DNA of 46,071 nt from Sulfurovum sp. (GTDB lineage Bacteria > Campylobacterota > Campylobacteria > Campylobacterales > Sulfurovaceae): contig JALUXB010000049.1 in assembly GCA_027019175.1 (NCBI GenBank), positions 1 through 46,071 of the forward strand, given 5' to 3'. A program made the position numbers and the translations under genes. This document shows positions 784 through 11,904 of the stretch, in pieces; the first letter of the stretch is position 1, and each line of letters begins with the position of its first letter. The notes under the pieces are model-generated. The model saw only the letters and a program-made list of their open reading frames with translations. It searched no databases and had not been told where the DNA came from.

Positions 784-815
784 AGTATACCCTGCAAGTG
801 TGCAGGGTTTGTGCA
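784..815 (-). promoter_or_regulatory. Promoter of efflux gene, direct-repeat type (site A)
   Basis: On the + strand TGTGCA occurs at 799–804 and 810–815 (11-bp period). Nine bases separate it from AGTATA at 784–789, which is TATACT on the minus strand. The -10 lies 32 bp before the ATG at 752. The layout is identical to four other promoters in the first 12 kb. Tandem half-sites one helical turn apart, covering the -35 region, are the usual binding pattern of OmpR-family activators. Confidence 0.7.
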
Positions 816-1136: not shown

Positions 1137-1168
1137 ATTGTACCAATACTGTGTGCAGAGAGCGTGCA
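1137..1168 (-). promoter_or_regulatory. Promoter of HMA gene, direct-repeat type (site B)
   Basis: On the + strand TGTGCA at 1152–1157 is followed by CGTGCA at 1163–1168, an 11-bp period. ATTGTA at 1137–1142 reads TACAAT on the minus strand, and the gap between -10 and repeat is 9 bp. Geometry is the same as at sites A, C, D and E. Confidence 0.7.
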
Positions 1169-4873: not shown

Positions 4874-4905
4874 ATGATAACACGTTTGCGTGCAGGTTAT
4901 GTGCA
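4874..4905 (-). promoter_or_regulatory. Promoter of DUF302-copA-copB operon (site C)
   Basis: On the + strand CGTGCA at 4889–4894 and TGTGCA at 4900–4905 form an 11-bp direct repeat. ATGATA at 4874–4879 is TATCAT on the minus strand, and the gap is again 9 bp. The site lies 46–62 bp upstream of the ATG at 4843. Confidence 0.7.
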
Positions 4906-4958: not shown

Positions 4959-5573
4959 CTAATCTGTCAGTATATAGCTTGATATGGAACGGTCGTAGTC
5001 GATACTGAAACCAAGTTTGTTCAGTTTTGAAATATAGACTCTCAAAGAGCCGTCACTGTGGCTTTCAAGTGTTTCTGAAATATAGGTTTTGTTGACCGGT
5101 TTATTGCGGTGTGTCAGAAGCAGTTCGAGCAGTTTGAGTTCATTGGGAGAGAGTTTGATCCGTTCTGTTCCTTTGAAAAGCTGACGGGTATTAAGATGGT
5201 AATAAAAATCTTTATAGATGACAATATTGTTTTTATGGTTGTATACTTTTCGGTAATGGTAATCGATTCTGACAGAAAGGTCATCCATATAAAGCGGTTT
5301 GATGAGATAGTCATCACCATGGAGAAACGCAAGTTTCATATGTTCCAGACTGTAATAGTCATCGATATAGATAACCGGTGTGGGATCCTCAGCATCTCTG
5401 AGAGACTGAATGGTCTGCAGGGCACTGAAGTGGATGATGTAAAGATCGTAATGTTTTTCATAGGTGAGAAAGAGGATCTCTTCCTCTGTCCATGCAAGAT
5501 CGACCTCATAGGACGAAAAATGGGTGTCAAGGTAATAGGGAAGGCTCTCTTCAAAGATGAGTATTTTGAACAT
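4959..5573 (-). CDS. OmpR-family response regulator with degenerate receiver
   Basis: A 204-residue two-domain regulator. Residues 1–115 keep the receiver outline (FKILIFEE, then YIIHFSALQ, then YLIKPLYMDD with the conserved Lys), but the phospho-acceptor Asp is replaced: the beta-3 strand reads YDLYIIHF, and the acidic pair after beta-1 is E-E. Residues 116–204 are a winged-helix DNA-binding domain with the OmpR-type LSPNELKLLELLL and SLRVYISKLNKLG helices. It probably binds DNA without classical phosphorylation. It is the last gene of its operon; the ATG overlaps the TPR stop by one base (TAATG), so translation is coupled. It is the best local candidate to bind the five direct-repeat promoters. 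No partner kinase is adjacent. Confidence 0.8.
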   Translation of the reverse strand: MFKILIFEESLPYYLDTHFSSYEVDLAWTEEEILFLTYEKHYDLYIIHFSALQTIQSLRDAEDPTPVIYIDDYYSLEHMKLAFLHGDDYLIKPLYMDDLSVRIDYHYRKVYNHKNNIVIYKDFYYHLNTRQLFKGTERIKLSPNELKLLELLLTHRNKPVNKTYISETLESHSDGSLRVYISKLNKLGFSIDYDRSISSYILTD

Positions 5574-6187
5574 TATTTTACTTTTTGCATACTTCTGACC
5601 ATCACATTGTTCGGATCGAGGATAAGAATATCTTCATACACCTTTTTAAGATAGGTATTGCCGGTTGCTTTGTAGATTCTGGCAAGCTGTTCGAGAAAAG
5701 GTACGGAAGCAGGATAGACTGTAAGCATTTTGTGAACCATTTGCAGTGCTGCATCGTATTTTTTCTCGGCAACAAGTGCTTTGATCATATAGAGATTTGC
5801 ATAGTAGTTGTAATAATCGATCTTAATCAATTCCTGTGCGGCACTTTCTGCCTTTTTGTAGGCTTCCGTCAAAAGGTAGACATGAATGATGCCAAGGCGC
5901 GGATTGATGGCATACGGGTTGATGATGGAGGCTTTCTGATAATACATAAGGCTGTTTTTGTATTTTTTTTCCCGGAAAAAGAGCCATCCGAAACGCAGAT
6001 TCAAGGTATAGCCGTTGGCATATTTTTTATACAGCGGGGTCAGTACTTTGATGGCTTCATCATATTTTCCCATCTGCTCATAGTTATATGACTTGACATA
6101 GAGTTGTTTGACCGAATCAGATTTGGGTTGAGATGCTGCAAGCAGTGTGAGACTTGCAAGCATCCATAGAAGTGGTGTTTTTTTCAT
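5573..6187 (-). CDS. Exported TPR-repeat protein
   Basis: A 204-residue protein with a short signal peptide (MKKTPLLWMLASLTLLAAS) and no lipobox Cys. The rest is four to five tetratricopeptide-like units, for example YEQMGKYDEAIKVLTPLYKK, then FREKKYKNSLMYYQKASIINP, then VAEKKYDAALQMVHKMLTVYP. TPR proteins act as interaction scaffolds; this one should be periplasmic. It starts one base after the stop of the outer-membrane barrel gene and overlaps the regulator by one base. The three genes are a tight unit, so the protein may work with the barrel or with signalling to the regulator, which is inference. Confidence 0.75.
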   Translation of the reverse strand: MKKTPLLWMLASLTLLAASQPKSDSVKQLYVKSYNYEQMGKYDEAIKVLTPLYKKYANGYTLNLRFGWLFFREKKYKNSLMYYQKASIINPYAINPRLGIIHVYLLTEAYKKAESAAQELIKIDYYNYYANLYMIKALVAEKKYDAALQMVHKMLTVYPASVPFLEQLARIYKATGNTYLKKVYEDILILDPNNVMVRSMQKVK

Positions 6188-6188
6188 A

Positions 6189-7088
6189 TCAGAAGGTATA
6201 GCTCACTGCTGCATATACGATGGAGTTACGTCCTTCCGGAAGAAGCTGGAGGGTTGCTGCATTGTATTCTTCATAGTCATTGGCAGTATAGTTTATGCTG
6301 ACATTCAGTTTTGGCGTAAAGTAGTATCCGAGTTTTGCCTGATAGGATCTGTGGTAAAGGTCTTTGGTATTGTATACGGAAAAGCCGTTGTCACGGACGC
6401 CGCTTTTCATGTCACCACCCATATATCCAAGCGTAAGGTAAGCACCTTTGTAGGTGACAGTATCGGAAATTTCATAGGAAAAGTAACTGGAATCGAGGTA
6501 GTCTTTTGCATCGATGAAATTGGCTTTGAGTGTAAAGGTGTTTCCCAGATCGGCAGAGATGGTTTTACCATATTCGAAATAGGGTGTAAACTGCCAAAGA
6601 CTGATAGTTGTGGTGTTGTTGATGTTTGTTTCGTTATGGGCACTGCCATAATGTGAATAGTAGACATCCAATCCGTAAGACATTTTGCTTTTGGCACCGT
6701 AAGTGTAGCCTTGAACTCCAAGAATACCGACAATACCGCTTCCAAGGTCTCGGAAATTTGTATTCTCATTGTTGTTGATGTAGTGAATACCGCCTTTGAA
6801 CATATATTTTGGGTTGTATTTGCTGTAGACCAGTGTCACGTCATGCTGGATAAGGTTTGAAACATTGACATTGTCTTTGTATTGTGTGTCGAGGTAGCTG
6901 TATGAAAACTCAAGCAGATAATCAAGGTTTCCGATGCTGGTATAGACCCCTCCGAATTTTGAACTGTCTTTCAGTGATTTGCCGGTAGAGTTGTCATAGT
7001 TGATCGTACCGAAATAAGGTAGTACAGTAGCCGTGTCTGCACAGGCAATCGCTGAAAGTGCCAGCGTTCCGAGTATAAGTTTTTTCAT
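6189..7088 (-). CDS. Outer-membrane beta-barrel protein, unknown substrate
   Basis: A 299-residue protein with signal peptide MKKLILGTLALSAIACA and repeated amphipathic strands rich in Tyr, ending in IVYAAVSYTF with a terminal Phe, the usual signal for outer-membrane insertion. It is smaller than classical porins and would form about 12–14 strands. The start is ATG 7088; ATG 7094 is only two bases behind the GGAG and is therefore unlikely. It has its own direct-repeat promoter at 7112–7143 although it lies in line with the urea-transporter fusion gene 110 bp upstream. It may let a small product of the upstream biosynthetic genes pass the outer membrane, which is inference from position. Confidence 0.75.
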   Translation of the reverse strand: MKKLILGTLALSAIACADTATVLPYFGTINYDNSTGKSLKDSSKFGGVYTSIGNLDYLLEFSYSYLDTQYKDNVNVSNLIQHDVTLVYSKYNPKYMFKGGIHYINNNENTNFRDLGSGIVGILGVQGYTYGAKSKMSYGLDVYYSHYGSAHNETNINNTTTISLWQFTPYFEYGKTISADLGNTFTLKANFIDAKDYLDSSYFSYEISDTVTYKGAYLTLGYMGGDMKSGVRDNGFSVYNTKDLYHRSYQAKLGYYFTPKLNVSINYTANDYEEYNAATLQLLPEGRNSIVYAAVSYTF

Positions 7089-7111
7089 TGTCATTTCTCC
7101 CAGTTTTTAAA

Positions 7112-7143
7112 ATTATAATGGTTGAATGTGCAGAAAGTGTGCA
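7112..7143 (-). promoter_or_regulatory. Promoter of barrel-TPR-regulator operon (site D)
   Basis: On the + strand TGTGCA occurs exactly at 7127–7132 and 7138–7143 (11-bp period). ATTATA at 7112–7117 gives a perfect TATAAT on the minus strand, and the gap is 9 bp. If the regulator at 4959–5573 binds here, it controls its own operon. Confidence 0.72.
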
Positions 7144-7198
7144 CAAAATTACAGAATTCTATCATATAATGTTTAATTATTTTATTATGTACTCCTTA

Positions 7199-9238
7199 TT
7201 ATATGTTTTCGGTAGAAAGTTTGAGGTGTGTTGTGTCGTATGCAATCGATGCAAACCCCTTGTGTGTTTTTGAGACAGCCACTTCTCCATACCGTGAAGT
7301 GACTGTTTCTCCGTCAAATGTATAGAGAGATGTTTCTCTGTAGATTTCTTTGTGAATGGTGGAAGCCAGTTCAATCAGGGTTCTTTGAATCGGACTTTTT
7401 GTCAAGTATGCGGGAAGGTAGTCCTCGTATGTTACTTTTTGGGACGAGATAAACGGAATACGCGGTGCCAGTATAAAAAGCTGTTTAAGATAGGAATCTG
7501 TGCCTTTATAGTCATAAAAATAGAACTCTTTGAGGGTATTGTAAAAATAGAGTCGGTTGTGCTGTGTATCGGTCAGATAGAATGTCCCTGCCGTATCCAT
7601 TTGAACACGAAAAACCGTTTTTCCGACAAGCACTCCTTTTTCATAGACATTATAGGTAAAAGTATCGTCCAGAATAAACAGAAATCTTGAAGCAATATGT
7701 TTGTTGATGACAGCGGCAGTGACCTCCTCATGAAGCGAAGGTGTGCTGTTGTAGAGGAGTTTCTCTTTGAAAATATACTCACTGAAAAGAAATTTTCTTG
7801 TAAACCCTCCGATTGTGGGGACATCCTGTACCTGAATATGAATATGGGGTTCGGGAGAATATCCGGAATTGCCGCACTTTGCAATGACACTCCCTTCCTG
7901 CACATAGGTTCCGGTTTCATGCGTGACAGAATATTGCATCAGGTGGCTTATCTCGACGTAGAATCCCATATCACTGCGGATAATGATGTAGTTCCCCCAG
8001 TTGTTGATATGGTCGACTTCGCCGATATGGTTGTCACGAAGGTCACTGCGCACATCGACGATGTACCCGCTGACAGGGGCGAGAATTGCTTCCCCGAAAG
8101 CAGCATAGTCTTCAGGCTGTTTTCCATCCCCTCTATAGGTTTTCCCATCAGGATATGTTTTGACAAAATCATAGGCGTAACGGTACTGGCCTTTGTGGGT
8201 CCATGCACCGTCAAATCCCTGATAGACAGACCATGTACCCGAATAGGGAAGGGAGATTTTTGTGGGGATCTCTCCAAAACGGAAGATTTTGCTCAGATAA
8301 TTTGCCAGGGAAGCTTCAGGGGTGGCTTTGATCTCTACGTTGAACTCTTTGTAATAGATAATGGAGAGAATAAAAATGAAGGCAATAACCGTAATGTTGA
8401 ACGGAAGCGTAAATACCGGAATGGCAAAATAGTTGAACAGCATGACAATGGCATCTGTCAGAATGACACTGATGGCAACCCCTATGAGTGCAAGGATGAA
8501 ATTTCGTAGTGTCGGAAGCAGAAAAATACCGCAAAGTGCAATGGCAACAAGAATGTAGTTGAATGCATAAGGGTCGTGCAGCGCCTGGGTATAGGAGTCG
8601 ATGAGCAGGCTGTGCAGCATGACACCAAAATAGAATCCTGTCAGTGCCATGATGAAAATGATCCGTGAAAAATAGAGAATCAGCAGTATGATTGCAGCAC
8701 CGGCGATATTATTTGGCAGAAAAAAGATAGCTCCAAGTGATTTGAGAAACCCGCTTAGCAGTGCGGGCATTTGGATATCGTACATAGTGGCATTGTTCAC
8801 CAGGGTGGAGAGAAGACCTGAATATTGAAGTGATGCAAGATAGACAAAGACTGTCACAATTGAAAAAGGCAGGGAAAGAATGGGGATTTTGTAAACACTG
8901 AACAGACGGTTGAACATGAAAGAAAGCATAAAAGTAAATGCGGAAAGAATGCCGATGAGCATAATGCTGACCATGGAGGGTTCGAAAATATAGCCTACTC
9001 CCATACCTACAAGCAGTGAGTTGTAAATGTAAAATCCCTGTGCAAGATAGGACTCTTTAAACTGCAGGAATTCTGCAAAGAGTATTGTAAAAACCACTGC
9101 TGCCAATCCGCTTAGTGCAACCGAAGGATTGATAAATGTGATCAGCAGCAGCACGATACCTGCTGCCCTGCTATTGAGAAAAAGAATAGCAGAGTAGGGT
9201 TTAATGGCACTAAAAATAAGTGTTTTCAGGTTCTCCAT
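7199..9238 (-). CDS. Urea-transporter-like membrane domain fused to M23 peptidase-like domain
   Basis: A 679-residue fusion. Residues 1–300 are a multi-helix membrane domain of the urea transporter (UT) family, with the duplicated hydrophobic layout and the NSRAAGIVLL / YNSLLVGMGVGY elements typical of UT repeats. Residues 330–480 are an LytM/M23-type domain: APVSGYIVDV, EISHL (His432) and EPHIHIQV (HxH at 465–467). In the first metal motif, expected as HxxxD, the His is Arg353 (RYAYD, Asp357), so the zinc site is incomplete. Residues 500–679 are unassigned. It lies 16 bp after the decarboxylase. The UT part probably moves a small neutral molecule; the M23-like part may bind peptidoglycan rather than cut it. 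Confidence 0.8.
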   Translation of the reverse strand: MENLKTLIFSAIKPYSAILFLNSRAAGIVLLLITFINPSVALSGLAAVVFTILFAEFLQFKESYLAQGFYIYNSLLVGMGVGYIFEPSMVSIMLIGILSAFTFMLSFMFNRLFSVYKIPILSLPFSIVTVFVYLASLQYSGLLSTLVNNATMYDIQMPALLSGFLKSLGAIFFLPNNIAGAAIILLILYFSRIIFIMALTGFYFGVMLHSLLIDSYTQALHDPYAFNYILVAIALCGIFLLPTLRNFILALIGVAISVILTDAIVMLFNYFAIPVFTLPFNITVIAFIFILSIIYYKEFNVEIKATPEASLANYLSKIFRFGEIPTKISLPYSGTWSVYQGFDGAWTHKGQYRYAYDFVKTYPDGKTYRGDGKQPEDYAAFGEAILAPVSGYIVDVRSDLRDNHIGEVDHINNWGNYIIIRSDMGFYVEISHLMQYSVTHETGTYVQEGSVIAKCGNSGYSPEPHIHIQVQDVPTIGGFTRKFLFSEYIFKEKLLYNSTPSLHEEVTAAVINKHIASRFLFILDDTFTYNVYEKGVLVGKTVFRVQMDTAGTFYLTDTQHNRLYFYNTLKEFYFYDYKGTDSYLKQLFILAPRIPFISSQKVTYEDYLPAYLTKSPIQRTLIELASTIHKEIYRETSLYTFDGETVTSRYGEVAVSKTHKGFASIAYDTTHLKLSTENI

Positions 9239-9254
9239 GGACAGACAGCCTTTT

Positions 9255-10583
9255 TTATATCTCTTTGTAGTTTACGGTTTCCAGGTCATCAACAGCTTTG
9301 ATGAGTTTCGGATGTCCCTCTGTGTCTATAAGCACCACTGCCGGCTTGTAGCGGATAAACTGCATCGCCTGCGTATAGTTGTAGGCGCCTACAGGAGAGA
9401 TACTCAAAATACTGCCACGGTCAAGTGCCGGAAGCATGATATGCTCTTCGATCACATCAATATTCATGCAGAGAGGGCCGTTGAGCGTAGAAGGTTCATT
9501 CTCGCCTTCGTAATGTTTGTCAAGCTCAATATTGAAGTTATACCATGTTGAAGTATAAAGCAGGTTGACTCCGGCATCAAGGATATACCCTTTCTTTCCG
9601 TCAGGAAACCGTTTATAGCCGTGGACTGATGTCAGGAGGTATCCTGCTTCATCTATCAGTGCCCGTCCGGTTTCAAGGTAGAGTTTCGGCAACGTATCAC
9701 TTTTATTCATCTCATAGATGGCATTGGTGATCGCTTCGGCATAATCGTCCGGCGTGGGAACGATGACATCAGGAGACTGATAAATGCCCTTGAGATGTGA
9801 TTTGCTGGCAAATCCGCCGCCAAGATCAATATATTCGATAGTAGCACCGAAATCATTCTCAACTGCTTCTTTCAGACGCATGATTTTGATCGTTGCTACT
9901 TTGTAGGCATTGGCATCGAGCATAAAGGTACCAATATGCGAATGAATGCCGTTAAGCTCAAGTTTGCCGCCGTCATACATACGTTTGACCGCTTCATAGG
10001 CTTCACCGCTCTCAAAGTTGAATCCGAAACGGGACCACTGCGGATGGATGCCGGTATCCATATTGATACGAATGGCGACTTTGATTTTGGTACCGAGTTC
10101 ATCGGCGATCTTTTCAAGGTCATTGAGTTCAAAAAGGTTGTCTACATGTATCTTTGCCCCCTCTTTAACGGCAATTTTGAGATCTTCATAAGGTTTGTAC
10201 GGGCCGTTAAAAATAATGTCTTTCCCTTCAACCCCGAGTGCTCTGGCTTTTTGATACTCAAATTCACTGACCACTTCGGCAATAGAACCAAGGTCGTGGA
10301 AAATGTTGCATATGGCATTGAGATAGTTCGTTTTGTAACTCCAGCCAAACTGGACATCCGGATATCTGGAACTGAATGCACTGTAGAGATTGCTGTAGAG
10401 TTCGCGTATTTTTTTCTCGGAAAATACGAAAACAGGGCTGCCAAAAGTATTGACAAGGTCAGCAACTTTGACACCGTCAATTTCAGAACGGATCTTCTGG
10501 GTTTTCATAGGGCTTCCGTATTTGGATGCCATAGCAAATTCGACTTTATTGATGGTTGGTTTGATGTAAGGCTGTTTGCTCAT
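9255..10583 (-). CDS. PLP-dependent amino-acid decarboxylase (fold III, DapDC/ODC-like)
   Basis: A 442-residue fold-type III decarboxylase of the LysA/ornithine-decarboxylase group. Visible signatures: PLP Lys84 in GWSYKTNYL; HSHIGTFM; the phosphate-binding LGGGFA; ETGRALIDEAG; the catalytic Cys in GPLCMNID; and the C-terminal GAYNYTQAMQF. These enzymes decarboxylate D- or L-amino-acid centres such as diaminopimelate. The gene does not look like the housekeeping lysA because it is locked between an ATP-grasp gene (one base gap) and the transporter fusion. It probably acts on a non-standard amino acid or on the product of the ATP-grasp ligase; the substrate cannot be read from sequence. Confidence 0.85.
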   Translation of the reverse strand: MSKQPYIKPTINKVEFAMASKYGSPMKTQKIRSEIDGVKVADLVNTFGSPVFVFSEKKIRELYSNLYSAFSSRYPDVQFGWSYKTNYLNAICNIFHDLGSIAEVVSEFEYQKARALGVEGKDIIFNGPYKPYEDLKIAVKEGAKIHVDNLFELNDLEKIADELGTKIKVAIRINMDTGIHPQWSRFGFNFESGEAYEAVKRMYDGGKLELNGIHSHIGTFMLDANAYKVATIKIMRLKEAVENDFGATIEYIDLGGGFASKSHLKGIYQSPDVIVPTPDDYAEAITNAIYEMNKSDTLPKLYLETGRALIDEAGYLLTSVHGYKRFPDGKKGYILDAGVNLLYTSTWYNFNIELDKHYEGENEPSTLNGPLCMNIDVIEEHIMLPALDRGSILSISPVGAYNYTQAMQFIRYKPAVVLIDTEGHPKLIKAVDDLETVNYKEI

Positions 10584-10584
10584 A

Positions 10585-11604
10585 TTAAAGTTCCTTTGTT
10601 GAAAGTAGTTTTATCAGGTCAGAAAAATCGGTGACCAGTTCGGCGGTATAACGCACATAAAGTTTGTTCTGCGGATACTCAAGCTGTGGCGGTGTATCGA
10701 TTCCCTGCATGATATCAACGACCATTTTGGGAAGGTTGATGCCGATTTCCGTTGCAAAATAGACCCATGCCGGGAAACGGGGGTTGATCTCGATAAGGAA
10801 GATATCACCATTGCCTGCCATAATGCACTCAAGTTCGAAGGGACCGTTCCATCCGGTCTGGGCAACGAAGTCTTTGGCGATATCCATCAGTTTTTGGTTT
10901 TGGAGGGTAACCCCTGTCCATATTTTCCCAATATCAGTCGTGGTCAGCTTTTTGATGGCCACAGCACCTTTGAGTTCCCCTTTGCCGTTGCCGACACCTA
11001 CGAGATTGAGTTCTTCTCCGGATACCACTTCCTGTACGAGTACGGGAAATCCCCATTCATTGGAGATCTTGTAAAAGTGTTCCACAGCACTGTCCAGATT
11101 GTGTGACATATAGGCCTTATAGTAGTTTCCTTTGACCATAAGCGGAAAACCGGTTTCTTCTGCACATTTGGCAAGTTCCTCTATGCTGGAGATCTCAAAG
11201 GTTTTTGGGTGTCTGATGGCAAGTTTTTCAGAAAGCGCATCGAGTTTGTTCTTGTTTCTAAGCTCAAAGTTTTCCAGTGAAGGAAGACACAGTTTAATGC
11301 CCAGTTCTGTTTCCAGCTCTCTTTGGTATTTAATGTAGAGCGGGAGTTCCGCATCGAGATTGGGGATCACAGCATCGATCTGCGATTTCTCTTTGATGTG
11401 TGCAAGCCGTTTCTTGAGTTCGTCAATACCGAGAGAGGGGTAGGGCATCAGGTAGGTTCTTTCACAAAGACCCATGTAGTTGCCCGGTTCGTTCGCATCG
11501 TAAGAGAGCCCTATGAGGGTGTGCTCTGAGCGCAAACTTTTAATCACAGGAATTCCCGGAGCCGGATTGTCTGTATTGTTCAGTCCACTGACAGCTATTT
11601 TCAT
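10585..11604 (-). CDS. ATP-grasp ligase (carbamoyl-phosphate-synthase-like)
   Basis: A 339-residue ATP-grasp enzyme. It has an N-terminal pre-ATP-grasp segment (MKIAVSGLNN), the nucleotide-binding GFPLMVKGNYY and PVLVQEVVSGEELNLVGVG strands, and the metal-binding FLIEINPRFPAWV near residue 275. Such enzymes activate a carboxylate as acyl phosphate and join it to an amine or thiol. Position between a PqqD-like gene (one base gap) and a PLP decarboxylase suggests it builds a peptide or modified amino acid, perhaps on a carrier. No precursor peptide gene was recognised. Confidence 0.85.
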   Translation of the reverse strand: MKIAVSGLNNTDNPAPGIPVIKSLRSEHTLIGLSYDANEPGNYMGLCERTYLMPYPSLGIDELKKRLAHIKEKSQIDAVIPNLDAELPLYIKYQRELETELGIKLCLPSLENFELRNKNKLDALSEKLAIRHPKTFEISSIEELAKCAEETGFPLMVKGNYYKAYMSHNLDSAVEHFYKISNEWGFPVLVQEVVSGEELNLVGVGNGKGELKGAVAIKKLTTTDIGKIWTGVTLQNQKLMDIAKDFVAQTGWNGPFELECIMAGNGDIFLIEINPRFPAWVYFATEIGINLPKMVVDIMQGIDTPPQLEYPQNKLYVRYTAELVTDFSDLIKLLSTKEL

Positions 11605-11605
11605 G

Positions 11606-11842
11606 TTATATCAATCCGTAAATTTTCAGTTTTGACATAAAATCACTGACATCGATAAAGAGATCCTCTTTGCTGACATCATATTTTTCGGAAAGTTCGT
11701 CAATGATCTCATCTTTGCTTTTATGGTGTCTAAGTGAGATGAGTATCTCTTTTGCAATATCGTTTAACTGGTAACTGTTGCCGACGACGGGATTGAATGC
11801 AATGTTGTTCTCGTCGAGTACAAGTTGGTCGATCGTTCTCAT
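11606..11842 (-). CDS. PqqD-like peptide-recognition protein
   Basis: A 78-residue protein of the PqqD (RRE-type winged helix) family. Features are the N-terminal beta strands (NNIAFNPVVGNSYQLNDIA), the I-L-x-x-L helix and the C-terminal helices ending DFMSKLKIYGLI. PqqD-type domains bind peptides and present them to modifying enzymes in RiPP-like pathways; related small proteins occur beside ATP-grasp ligases. It is the first gene of the run of minus-strand genes, one base ahead of the ATP-grasp. A direct-repeat promoter lies at 11873–11904. Confidence 0.8.
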   Translation of the reverse strand: MRTIDQLVLDENNIAFNPVVGNSYQLNDIAKEILISLRHHKSKDEIIDELSEKYDVSKEDLFIDVSDFMSKLKIYGLI

Positions 11843-11872: not shown

Positions 11873-11904
11873 ATTCTATGCTTCCCGTGTTAATAAAATG
11901 TTAA
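11873..11904 (-). promoter_or_regulatory. Promoter of pqqD-ATP-grasp operon (site E)
   Basis: On the + strand TGTTAA occurs at 11888–11893 and 11899–11904 (11-bp period). ATTCTA at 11873–11878 is TAGAAT on the minus strand, with a 9-bp gap. The geometry equals sites A–D; the half-site differs (TGTTAA instead of TGTGCA), so a related but weaker site, or another OmpR-type regulator, is possible. Confidence 0.55.

Follow-up and report, generated by a model that had tools for sequence, protein, structure and literature searches.

The analysis of a 46,071-nt stretch of Sulfurovum sp. DNA (contig JALUXB010000049.1 of assembly GCA_027019175.1, positions 1-46,071; hereafter the window) identified an operon that combines a PqqD-family protein, an ATP-grasp ligase, an alanine racemase (AR)-fold pyridoxal phosphate (PLP) decarboxylase, a urea-transporter (UT) domain fused to an M23 peptidase domain (UT-M23), an outer-membrane protein (OMP), a tetratricopeptide repeat (TPR) protein and an OmpR-type regulator (Table 1). 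The grouping of these genes goes far beyond chance and the same genes adjoin in four phyla. We give a probability of roughly 0.4 to the reading that this undescribed operon makes a small amine-type metabolite and exports it via UT-type and porin-type channels under metal-linked control. Literature searches found no published description of the combination of PqqD, ATP-grasp, urea transporter and decarboxylase, as had been surmised in an initial annotation of this DNA. The gene system is real, widespread and apparently undescribed, and its novelty rests on the parts list and on these unsuccessful searches.

The proposed pathway would begin in the cytoplasm, where the ATP-grasp ligase would couple an amino acid with another carboxylate or amine, the decarboxylase would strip the alpha-carboxyl group from this conjugate and the PqqD domain would bind or present a partner. 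The product would then exit by the UT-type channel, at which the M23 domain on the cytoplasmic side may trim or release it, and would cross the outer membrane by the 14-strand channel, for which the TPR protein would act as periplasmic partner, while transcription would be controlled by OmpR-type regulators. The gene set and its order, the co-occurrence, the folds, the altered active sites and the common promoter boxes are observed, whereas ligation before decarboxylation, the transport direction, the M23 sidedness and a metal-handling role are inferred. The co-inheritance in at least four phyla (vent Campylobacterota, Aquificota, Bacteroidota, and Gammaproteobacteria including a Francisella) suggests a widespread metabolite with its own trans-envelope route. 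If this were true, the urea-transporter fold would have a role outside urea, the system would contain an M23 peptidase that possibly works in the cytoplasm, and it might provide a new class of metal-handling compounds. Several of the relatives belong to cultivable genera.

Table 1. Genes of the operon and putative promoter boxes in the window
Feature	Position	Strand	Basis
PqqD-family protein, 78 aa, first gene	11606-11842	-	Pfam PqqD, 48 bits
ATP-grasp ligase, 339 aa	10585-11604	-	Pfam ATPgrasp_Ter
AR-fold PLP decarboxylase, 442 aa, not LysA	9255-10583	-	Pfam Orn_Arg_deC_N + Orn_DAP_Arg_deC
UT-M23: urea-transporter domain ~1-320, Peptidase_M23 ~325-490, C-terminal beta-rich region	7199-9238	-	Pfam
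OMP: outer-membrane beta-barrel channel, 301 aa, 14 strands	6189-7094	-	AlphaFold2 model
TPR protein, 204 aa, signal-like N-terminal segment	5573-6187	-	Pfam TPR_19/TPR_14
OmpR-type regulator, degenerate receiver	4959-5573	-	Pfam Trans_reg_C
TTAACA-N5-TTAACA direct repeat, -35 position of PqqD promoter	11888-11904	-	1 in window vs 0.01 expected
TGCAC-N6-TGCAC before OMP-TPR-regulator	7128-7143	-	TATAAT follows
TGCAC-N6-TGCAC before DUF302-CopA-CopB	4890-4905	-	motif search
TGCAC-N6-TGCAC before HMA copper-chaperone-like gene (~820-1107)	1153-1168	-	motif search
TGCAC-N6-TGCAC before outer-membrane efflux (TolC/CusC-type) gene	800-815	-	motif search

Gene order and co-inheritance

The annotated extent of the seven genes (4959-11842), their common minus strand and their domain types were borne out by a check of the open reading frames (ORFs) of the window, by Pfam and by the OMP model. 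Read from the PqqD gene to the regulator gene, the intergenic gaps amount to 1, 1, 16, 104 and 1 bp, and the TPR and regulator genes overlap by 1 base. Towards lower coordinates, the operon is adjoined by genes for a DUF302 protein, a CopA-type multicopper oxidase and CopB (Pfam, NCBIfam). No operon gene reached an NCBIfam equivalog cut-off, and the nearest names, lysA, FslC and urea_trans_yut, each stayed well under the threshold.

A scan with the decarboxylase, using one genome per species, found 28 loci, among them loci of Sulfurovum, Sulfurimonas, Sulfuricurvum, Nautiliales, Persephonella, a Francisella sp., a gammaproteobacterium and a Bacteroidales bacterium. As far as the contigs reach, almost every locus keeps PqqD, ATP-grasp, decarboxylase and UT-M23 in this sequence, with OMP and TPR behind them in one or the other order. 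Profile searches with UT-M23 found the protein in 21 of 369 gammaproteobacterial genomes (about 16 of them across most of the profile), in 34 of 296 Bacteroidota genomes (about 26 across most of the profile), in 43 of 136 Aquificota genomes and in 16 of 298 Campylobacterota genomes; in the latter, the decarboxylase and ATP-grasp profiles detected the identical 16 genomes and no others. Hence, the co-occurrence check proposed with the initial annotation gave genes that are not scattered in relatives. The neighbourhoods of all four groups contain a common core with PqqD as the first gene, and TPR homologues are found in the cluster at 75 loci. The Bacteroidota make an exception in that the OMP profile recognises few of their loci. 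Furthermore, the regulator, which had been counted as part of the set, is present in the window but does not belong to the core common to all groups; its recurrence is limited to some Campylobacterota loci.

The coupling also extends to genes on separate contigs. All five Aquificota genomes with UT-M23 on another contig keep the decarboxylase, in four of the five with PqqD and ATP-grasp beside it, while none of four genomes lacking UT-M23 has the decarboxylase; two draft genomes (G552 and G1074, G numbers denoting genomes) contain UT-M23 and no decarboxylase. The system thus has sub-modules (the enzymes, UT-M23 and the OMP-TPR pair) that are inherited in company.

Several observations were made at single loci (L001 to L221 label the neighbourhoods extracted from other genomes or from the own genome). 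Both UT-M23 and the decarboxylase are broken in two of the 16 Campylobacterota genomes (L089 in G053 and L090 in G224), as in a decaying operon. At the Bacteroidota loci L167-L185, the TPR gene is adjoined by genes for other secreted proteins (~280 aa) or for a protein of about 440 aa that has both TPR and barrel-like parts, and these replace the recognised OMP. A family of ~280-aa secreted proteins occurs at 11 Bacteroidota loci, mostly directly before PqqD, and one member has a type IX secretion tail (L176:5917-6762). In Aquificota, the interval between ATP-grasp and decarboxylase can harbour tiny Cys-rich lipoprotein-like ORFs (L201:9640-9860, L202:7955-8089), a second Cys/His-rich membrane ORF in L201, or a CxxCH cytochrome-like ORF with a Cys-rich tail (L198:8193-8485). 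A plasmid search returned only distant decarboxylase matches with less than 60% identity, and the PADLOC defence models gave no match.

The decarboxylase and its ligase partner

The nearest solved structure to the decarboxylase is the N-citrylornithine decarboxylase FigC/FslC (7kh2, 268 bits), while an archaeal diaminopimelate (DAP) decarboxylase (DAPDC) reaches 222 bits and BtrK is also among the solved relatives. A study of 2020 placed FigC in one clade with SbnH, AcsE, MccE, BtrK and DAPDC, and the clade members other than DAPDC and D-ornithine decarboxylase likely serve specialised metabolites, e.g. siderophores (PMC7857480). The proximity of the decarboxylase to FslC/FigC in this specialised-metabolite clade (PMC7857480) counts for metabolite synthesis. 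The positions named in the same study were used to compare active sites. All 13 family members carry Thr (T344 in the window protein), W347, Y/F348, C372-M373-N374-I375-D376, Y401 and Q405. DAPDC enzymes display the pattern R and CES/CET-x-D, and FigC displays T-x-x-Y, CMQHD and R387. The DAP-binding R (in the specificity helix) and CE (Glu next to the catalytic Cys) are found in 1twi, in the own lysA and in a gammaproteobacterial paralogue, whereas T and CM occupy these positions in 13/13 family members; the citrate contacts H357 and R387 of FigC are replaced by I and Q, again in all 13. The decarboxylase tree contained two misassigned paralogue rows (non-decarboxylase ORFs from Francisella loci) and long FigC branches, hence its topology was left aside and only the active-site columns were used.

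These replacements bear on the identity of the enzyme. The best NCBIfam match is still lysA (TIGR01048), which would fit a routine role in lysine or polyamine metabolism, the adjoining transporter being unrelated; however, the match of 228.7 bits falls below the cut-off of 297.9, the genome has its own separate lysA-like gene on its contig C6, the active-site residues are replaced and the gene set is co-inherited, so that such a function is extremely improbable. The LysA identity was rejected because of the own lysA and the replaced DAP-binding Arg and Glu. The N-citrylornithine decarboxylase identity was likewise rejected, because the citrate-binding His and Arg are replaced, and the corresponding model NF041039 is matched with 224.6 bits at a cut-off of 500. 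Since the DAP- and citrate-binding residues are both replaced and the pocket is more neutral, a substrate different from DAP and N-citrylornithine is expected from the residues in these columns. The operon has no match to a known housekeeping pathway, in agreement with the initial annotation.

A similar logic is known from the Francisella rhizoferrin pathway with the NRPS-independent siderophore (NIS) synthetase FslA/FigA, FslC/FigC and a major facilitator superfamily (MFS) exporter, in which a ligase makes an N-acyl amino acid that an AR-fold PLP enzyme then decarboxylates (PMC7857480). Unlike in rhizoferrin synthesis, the ATP-grasp ligase of the window takes the place of the NIS synthetase and UT-M23 that of the MFS exporter, with PqqD, OMP and TPR as extra parts; a NIS synthetase partner was found neither in the window operon by Pfam nor among the recurrent neighbour families. 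The ligase itself has CarB-like proteins and PylC as PDB relatives. In the synthesis of the butirosin side chain, the ATP-grasp enzyme BtrJ loads glutamate on the carrier BtrI, where it is decarboxylated by the PLP enzyme BtrK. The operon resembles this system in its pair of ATP-grasp and PLP decarboxylase, the latter being a sequence relative of BtrK, but differs in having no acyl carrier protein and no conserved attachment residue in PqqD.

UT-M23, the outer-membrane parts and the PqqD domain

The UT domain of UT-M23 matches Pfam UT (PF03253) with 216.8 bits at a cut-off of 25. In the structure model (pLDDT, the predicted local distance difference test, 86.5), residues 1-320 align with urea transporters at Z ~34 and residues ~325-490 with M23 peptidases at Z ~13 (VIA-align), while the C-terminal third of the protein is rich in beta structure. 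The channel fold is thus that of the bacterial urea transporters Yut and dvUT; however, the urea_trans_yut equivalog (TIGR03441) is matched with only 103 bits, below its cut-off of 274.6, an M23 domain is fused, the 'GQ/GE' positions of the pore helices vary, with A, T, S, Q or E in most cases, and the operon contains no urease. The zinc and catalytic residues of the M23 domain (H348, D357, H432, H465 and H467) are invariant in 75/75 non-redundant homologues.

The sidedness of this peptidase was approached from loop charges in the same 75 homologues. The loops on one side, including the N-terminus, have a mean of 1.0-2.1 K+R and those on the other side 0.04-0.32, except for the long central loop on this second side, which has 1.08 K+R with a net negative charge; the 40 residues past the last membrane helix contain on average 5.9 K+R. 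In mammalian UT proteins both termini are cytoplasmic. According to the positive-inside rule, the alternating charges place both termini, and hence the M23 domain, on the cytoplasmic side, which is a prediction. Therefore, from the initial description as a transporter fused to a wall-type domain the fusion of a UT fold to M23 holds, whereas the domain is predicted to face the cytoplasm and not the wall. This bears on a role in the cell envelope, in which a periplasmic M23 domain would act on peptidoglycan, and the DAP-decarboxylase-like and Ddl/CarB-like enzymes would alter wall precursors so that barrel and TPR protein can assemble. M23 peptidases usually act on the wall, and the decarboxylase and ligase superfamilies include wall or lysine enzymes, but the loop charges and the replacement of the DAP-binding Arg and Glu in every member make such a role quite improbable.

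The OMP has no match in Pfam. Its AlphaFold2 model (pLDDT 92.4) is a barrel that matches the monomeric channels CymA, TodX, Omp33, FadL and OmpG at Z ~19-20, and both OMP and TPR protein start with signal-like N-termini. UT-M23, OMP and TPR protein would together form a route from the cytoplasm to the outside. The same parts could also serve the uptake and breakdown of a small nitrogen compound or peptide, which would be imported by OMP and UT and processed by M23, ATP-grasp and decarboxylase. UT proteins are known as bidirectional facilitators, the OMP resembles the uptake channels CymA, TodX, FadL and OmpG, and repeats of the type found at the PqqD promoter precede two TonB-receptor genes of the own genome (in a count not above the reversed-pattern control). 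On the other hand, ATP-grasp ligases form amide bonds and do not break them, PqqD is a biosynthetic helper in other systems, and the core set has no catabolic enzyme, urease or amidase, so that we regard uptake as unlikely.

The PqqD protein contains the PqqD domain that serves as RiPP recognition element (RRE) in systems for ribosomally synthesised and post-translationally modified peptides (RiPPs), as indicated by Pfam PqqD and the PDB relative TbiB1. Its nearest solved relatives in the PDB search are the lasso-peptide B1 RRE proteins TbiB1 and TfuB1, with which it shares the fold; unlike in lasso systems, there is no cyclase and no precursor peptide was found, and the scores stay below the family cut-offs. 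These features would suit a RiPP- or carrier-peptide system, in which a small peptide held by the PqqD RRE would receive an amino acid from ATP-grasp and be acted on by the decarboxylase, and cleavage by the cytoplasmic M23 domain would free the product at the UT mouth in a manner known from C39 peptidases on ABC exporters. The intact, predictedly cytoplasmic M23 site and BtrK, which decarboxylates carrier-bound glutamate, as a solved relative are consistent with it. However, among 605 small ORFs at 68 loci, a search that covers the locus vicinity, no conserved precursor-like family common across lineages was found, the space between upstream gene and PqqD is only ~69 bp in L016, and the PqqD C-terminus is not conserved, all of which renders this alternative rather improbable. 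Of the peptide recognition initially proposed, the PqqD domain thus remains, while the short precursor ORFs expected next to the locus did not appear.

UT-M23 would be like the C39/LanT-type ABC exporters in joining an export channel to a peptidase that lies in the cytoplasm, but M23 replaces C39 and a passive UT channel replaces the ABC exporter. It might even represent a new exporter type in which a cytoplasmic M23 domain gates a urea-type channel: a metabolite that ATP-grasp and decarboxylase build on a PqqD-held peptide or protein would be severed from it at the mouth of the channel and leave through the matched OMP, giving a new class of metal-handling (copper) metabolites in four phyla. 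We consider this extended version a long shot.

Some gammaproteobacterial PqqD proteins have an N-terminal extension of ~185 residues (L093:2505-3272, L094:13640-14410, L095:7535-8320, L096:6787-7608). A TetR-like identity of this extension, read by eye, was not retained, because Pfam gave no match and the PDB only a weak one to RamR with E 0.24 or worse.

Promoter repeats and the metal link

The exact repeat TGCAC-N6-TGCAC occurs four times in the window versus 0.14 expected. Apart from the copy before OMP-TPR-regulator, all precede copper or efflux genes, hence OMP-TPR-regulator shares a putative operator with copper genes, as judged from these motifs in the Sulfurovum species of the window and L001. 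Among the other lineages, the box was found in L001 only, plus a single match in L024, and thus it is no family-wide feature. At the PqqD promoter stands another repeat, TTAACA-N5-TTAACA, so that the initial statement that the promoters match the copper genes is valid for the OMP promoter and not for the PqqD promoter. The related pattern YTAAC-N6-YTAAC with an 11-bp period precedes PqqD at the corresponding place in 11 of 22 Campylobacterota lineages versus 0.035 expected, and a repeat of this period corresponds to the operator layout of OmpR/PhoB-type regulators. Two-component genes directly precede PqqD at L003, L010, L087 and two gammaproteobacterial loci, L093 and L095. The regulator of the operon has a C-terminal winged helix (Trans_reg_C, 26.5 bits, cut-off 26.2), and His occupies the phospho-acceptor Asp position of its receiver ('DLYIIHFS', compared with 'DLYIFDVN' in adjacent-family regulators); weak matches to copper/heavy-metal response regulators were below the NCBIfam cut-off.

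As a genome-wide regulon marker, TTAACA-N5-TTAACA was rejected, because four sites versus three for the reversed pattern are not specific. The two TonB-dependent-receptor-like genes directly preceded by this repeat are those of L220 and L221 (own genome, C14:3667 and C19:38482).

Copper/heavy-metal efflux genes adjoin the system in seven lineages. CopA-CopB are neighbours in the window and L001 as well as in L081/L082, and L026 combines CopAB, CusBA and a two-component system. In L004, a copper-type P-type ATPase with YHS/HMBD domains follows ~50 bp past the TPR gene, in L092 the UT-M23 gene comes after CusBA, a P-type ATPase and a YHS protein, and the Persephonella-type loci (L021/L023/L186/L187 and L190) have heavy-metal resistance-nodulation-division neighbours. 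At the locus of the Francisella sp. (L018), a Fur-type regulator and a ZIP transporter are situated downstream. As transcription of the outer-membrane part appears to be coupled to that of copper genes in this species, the metabolite would probably serve metal, here copper, handling.

Several points weigh against a metabolite exported under metal-linked control. The core gene set contains no TonB receptor. UT is a passive, bidirectional channel fold that passes very small neutral solutes; hence the direction of transport is unreadable from sequence, and the range of possible products is limited. Metal genes are found near 21 of 100 loci versus 3 of 40 background windows (7.5%; Fisher p=0.08), with loci that are not independent and background windows taken at fixed round coordinates. 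Metal neighbours are missing at the majority of Bacteroidota loci and at many of the Campylobacterota loci. Because of this excess of 21% versus 7.5%, the metal link is well supported in the lineage of the window and only suggestive for the whole family, so the metal-related product proposed initially finds backing in part of the family and not in the overall excess. Nitratiruptor SB155-2 is presumably a carrier of the operon (near a multicopper oxidase). In RNA-seq data from this strain under copper and cadmium, CueO and CopA showed copper-specific induction, while the main text of that report names no operon gene by annotation except an induced ATP-grasp (NIS_RS04835), which could not be tied to the operon locus (PMC10092412). 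Finally, a likely HepT/MntA-type toxin-antitoxin pair, read by eye, is located within the copper gene cluster at 1225-1900 of the window, between the HMA chaperone gene and CopB.

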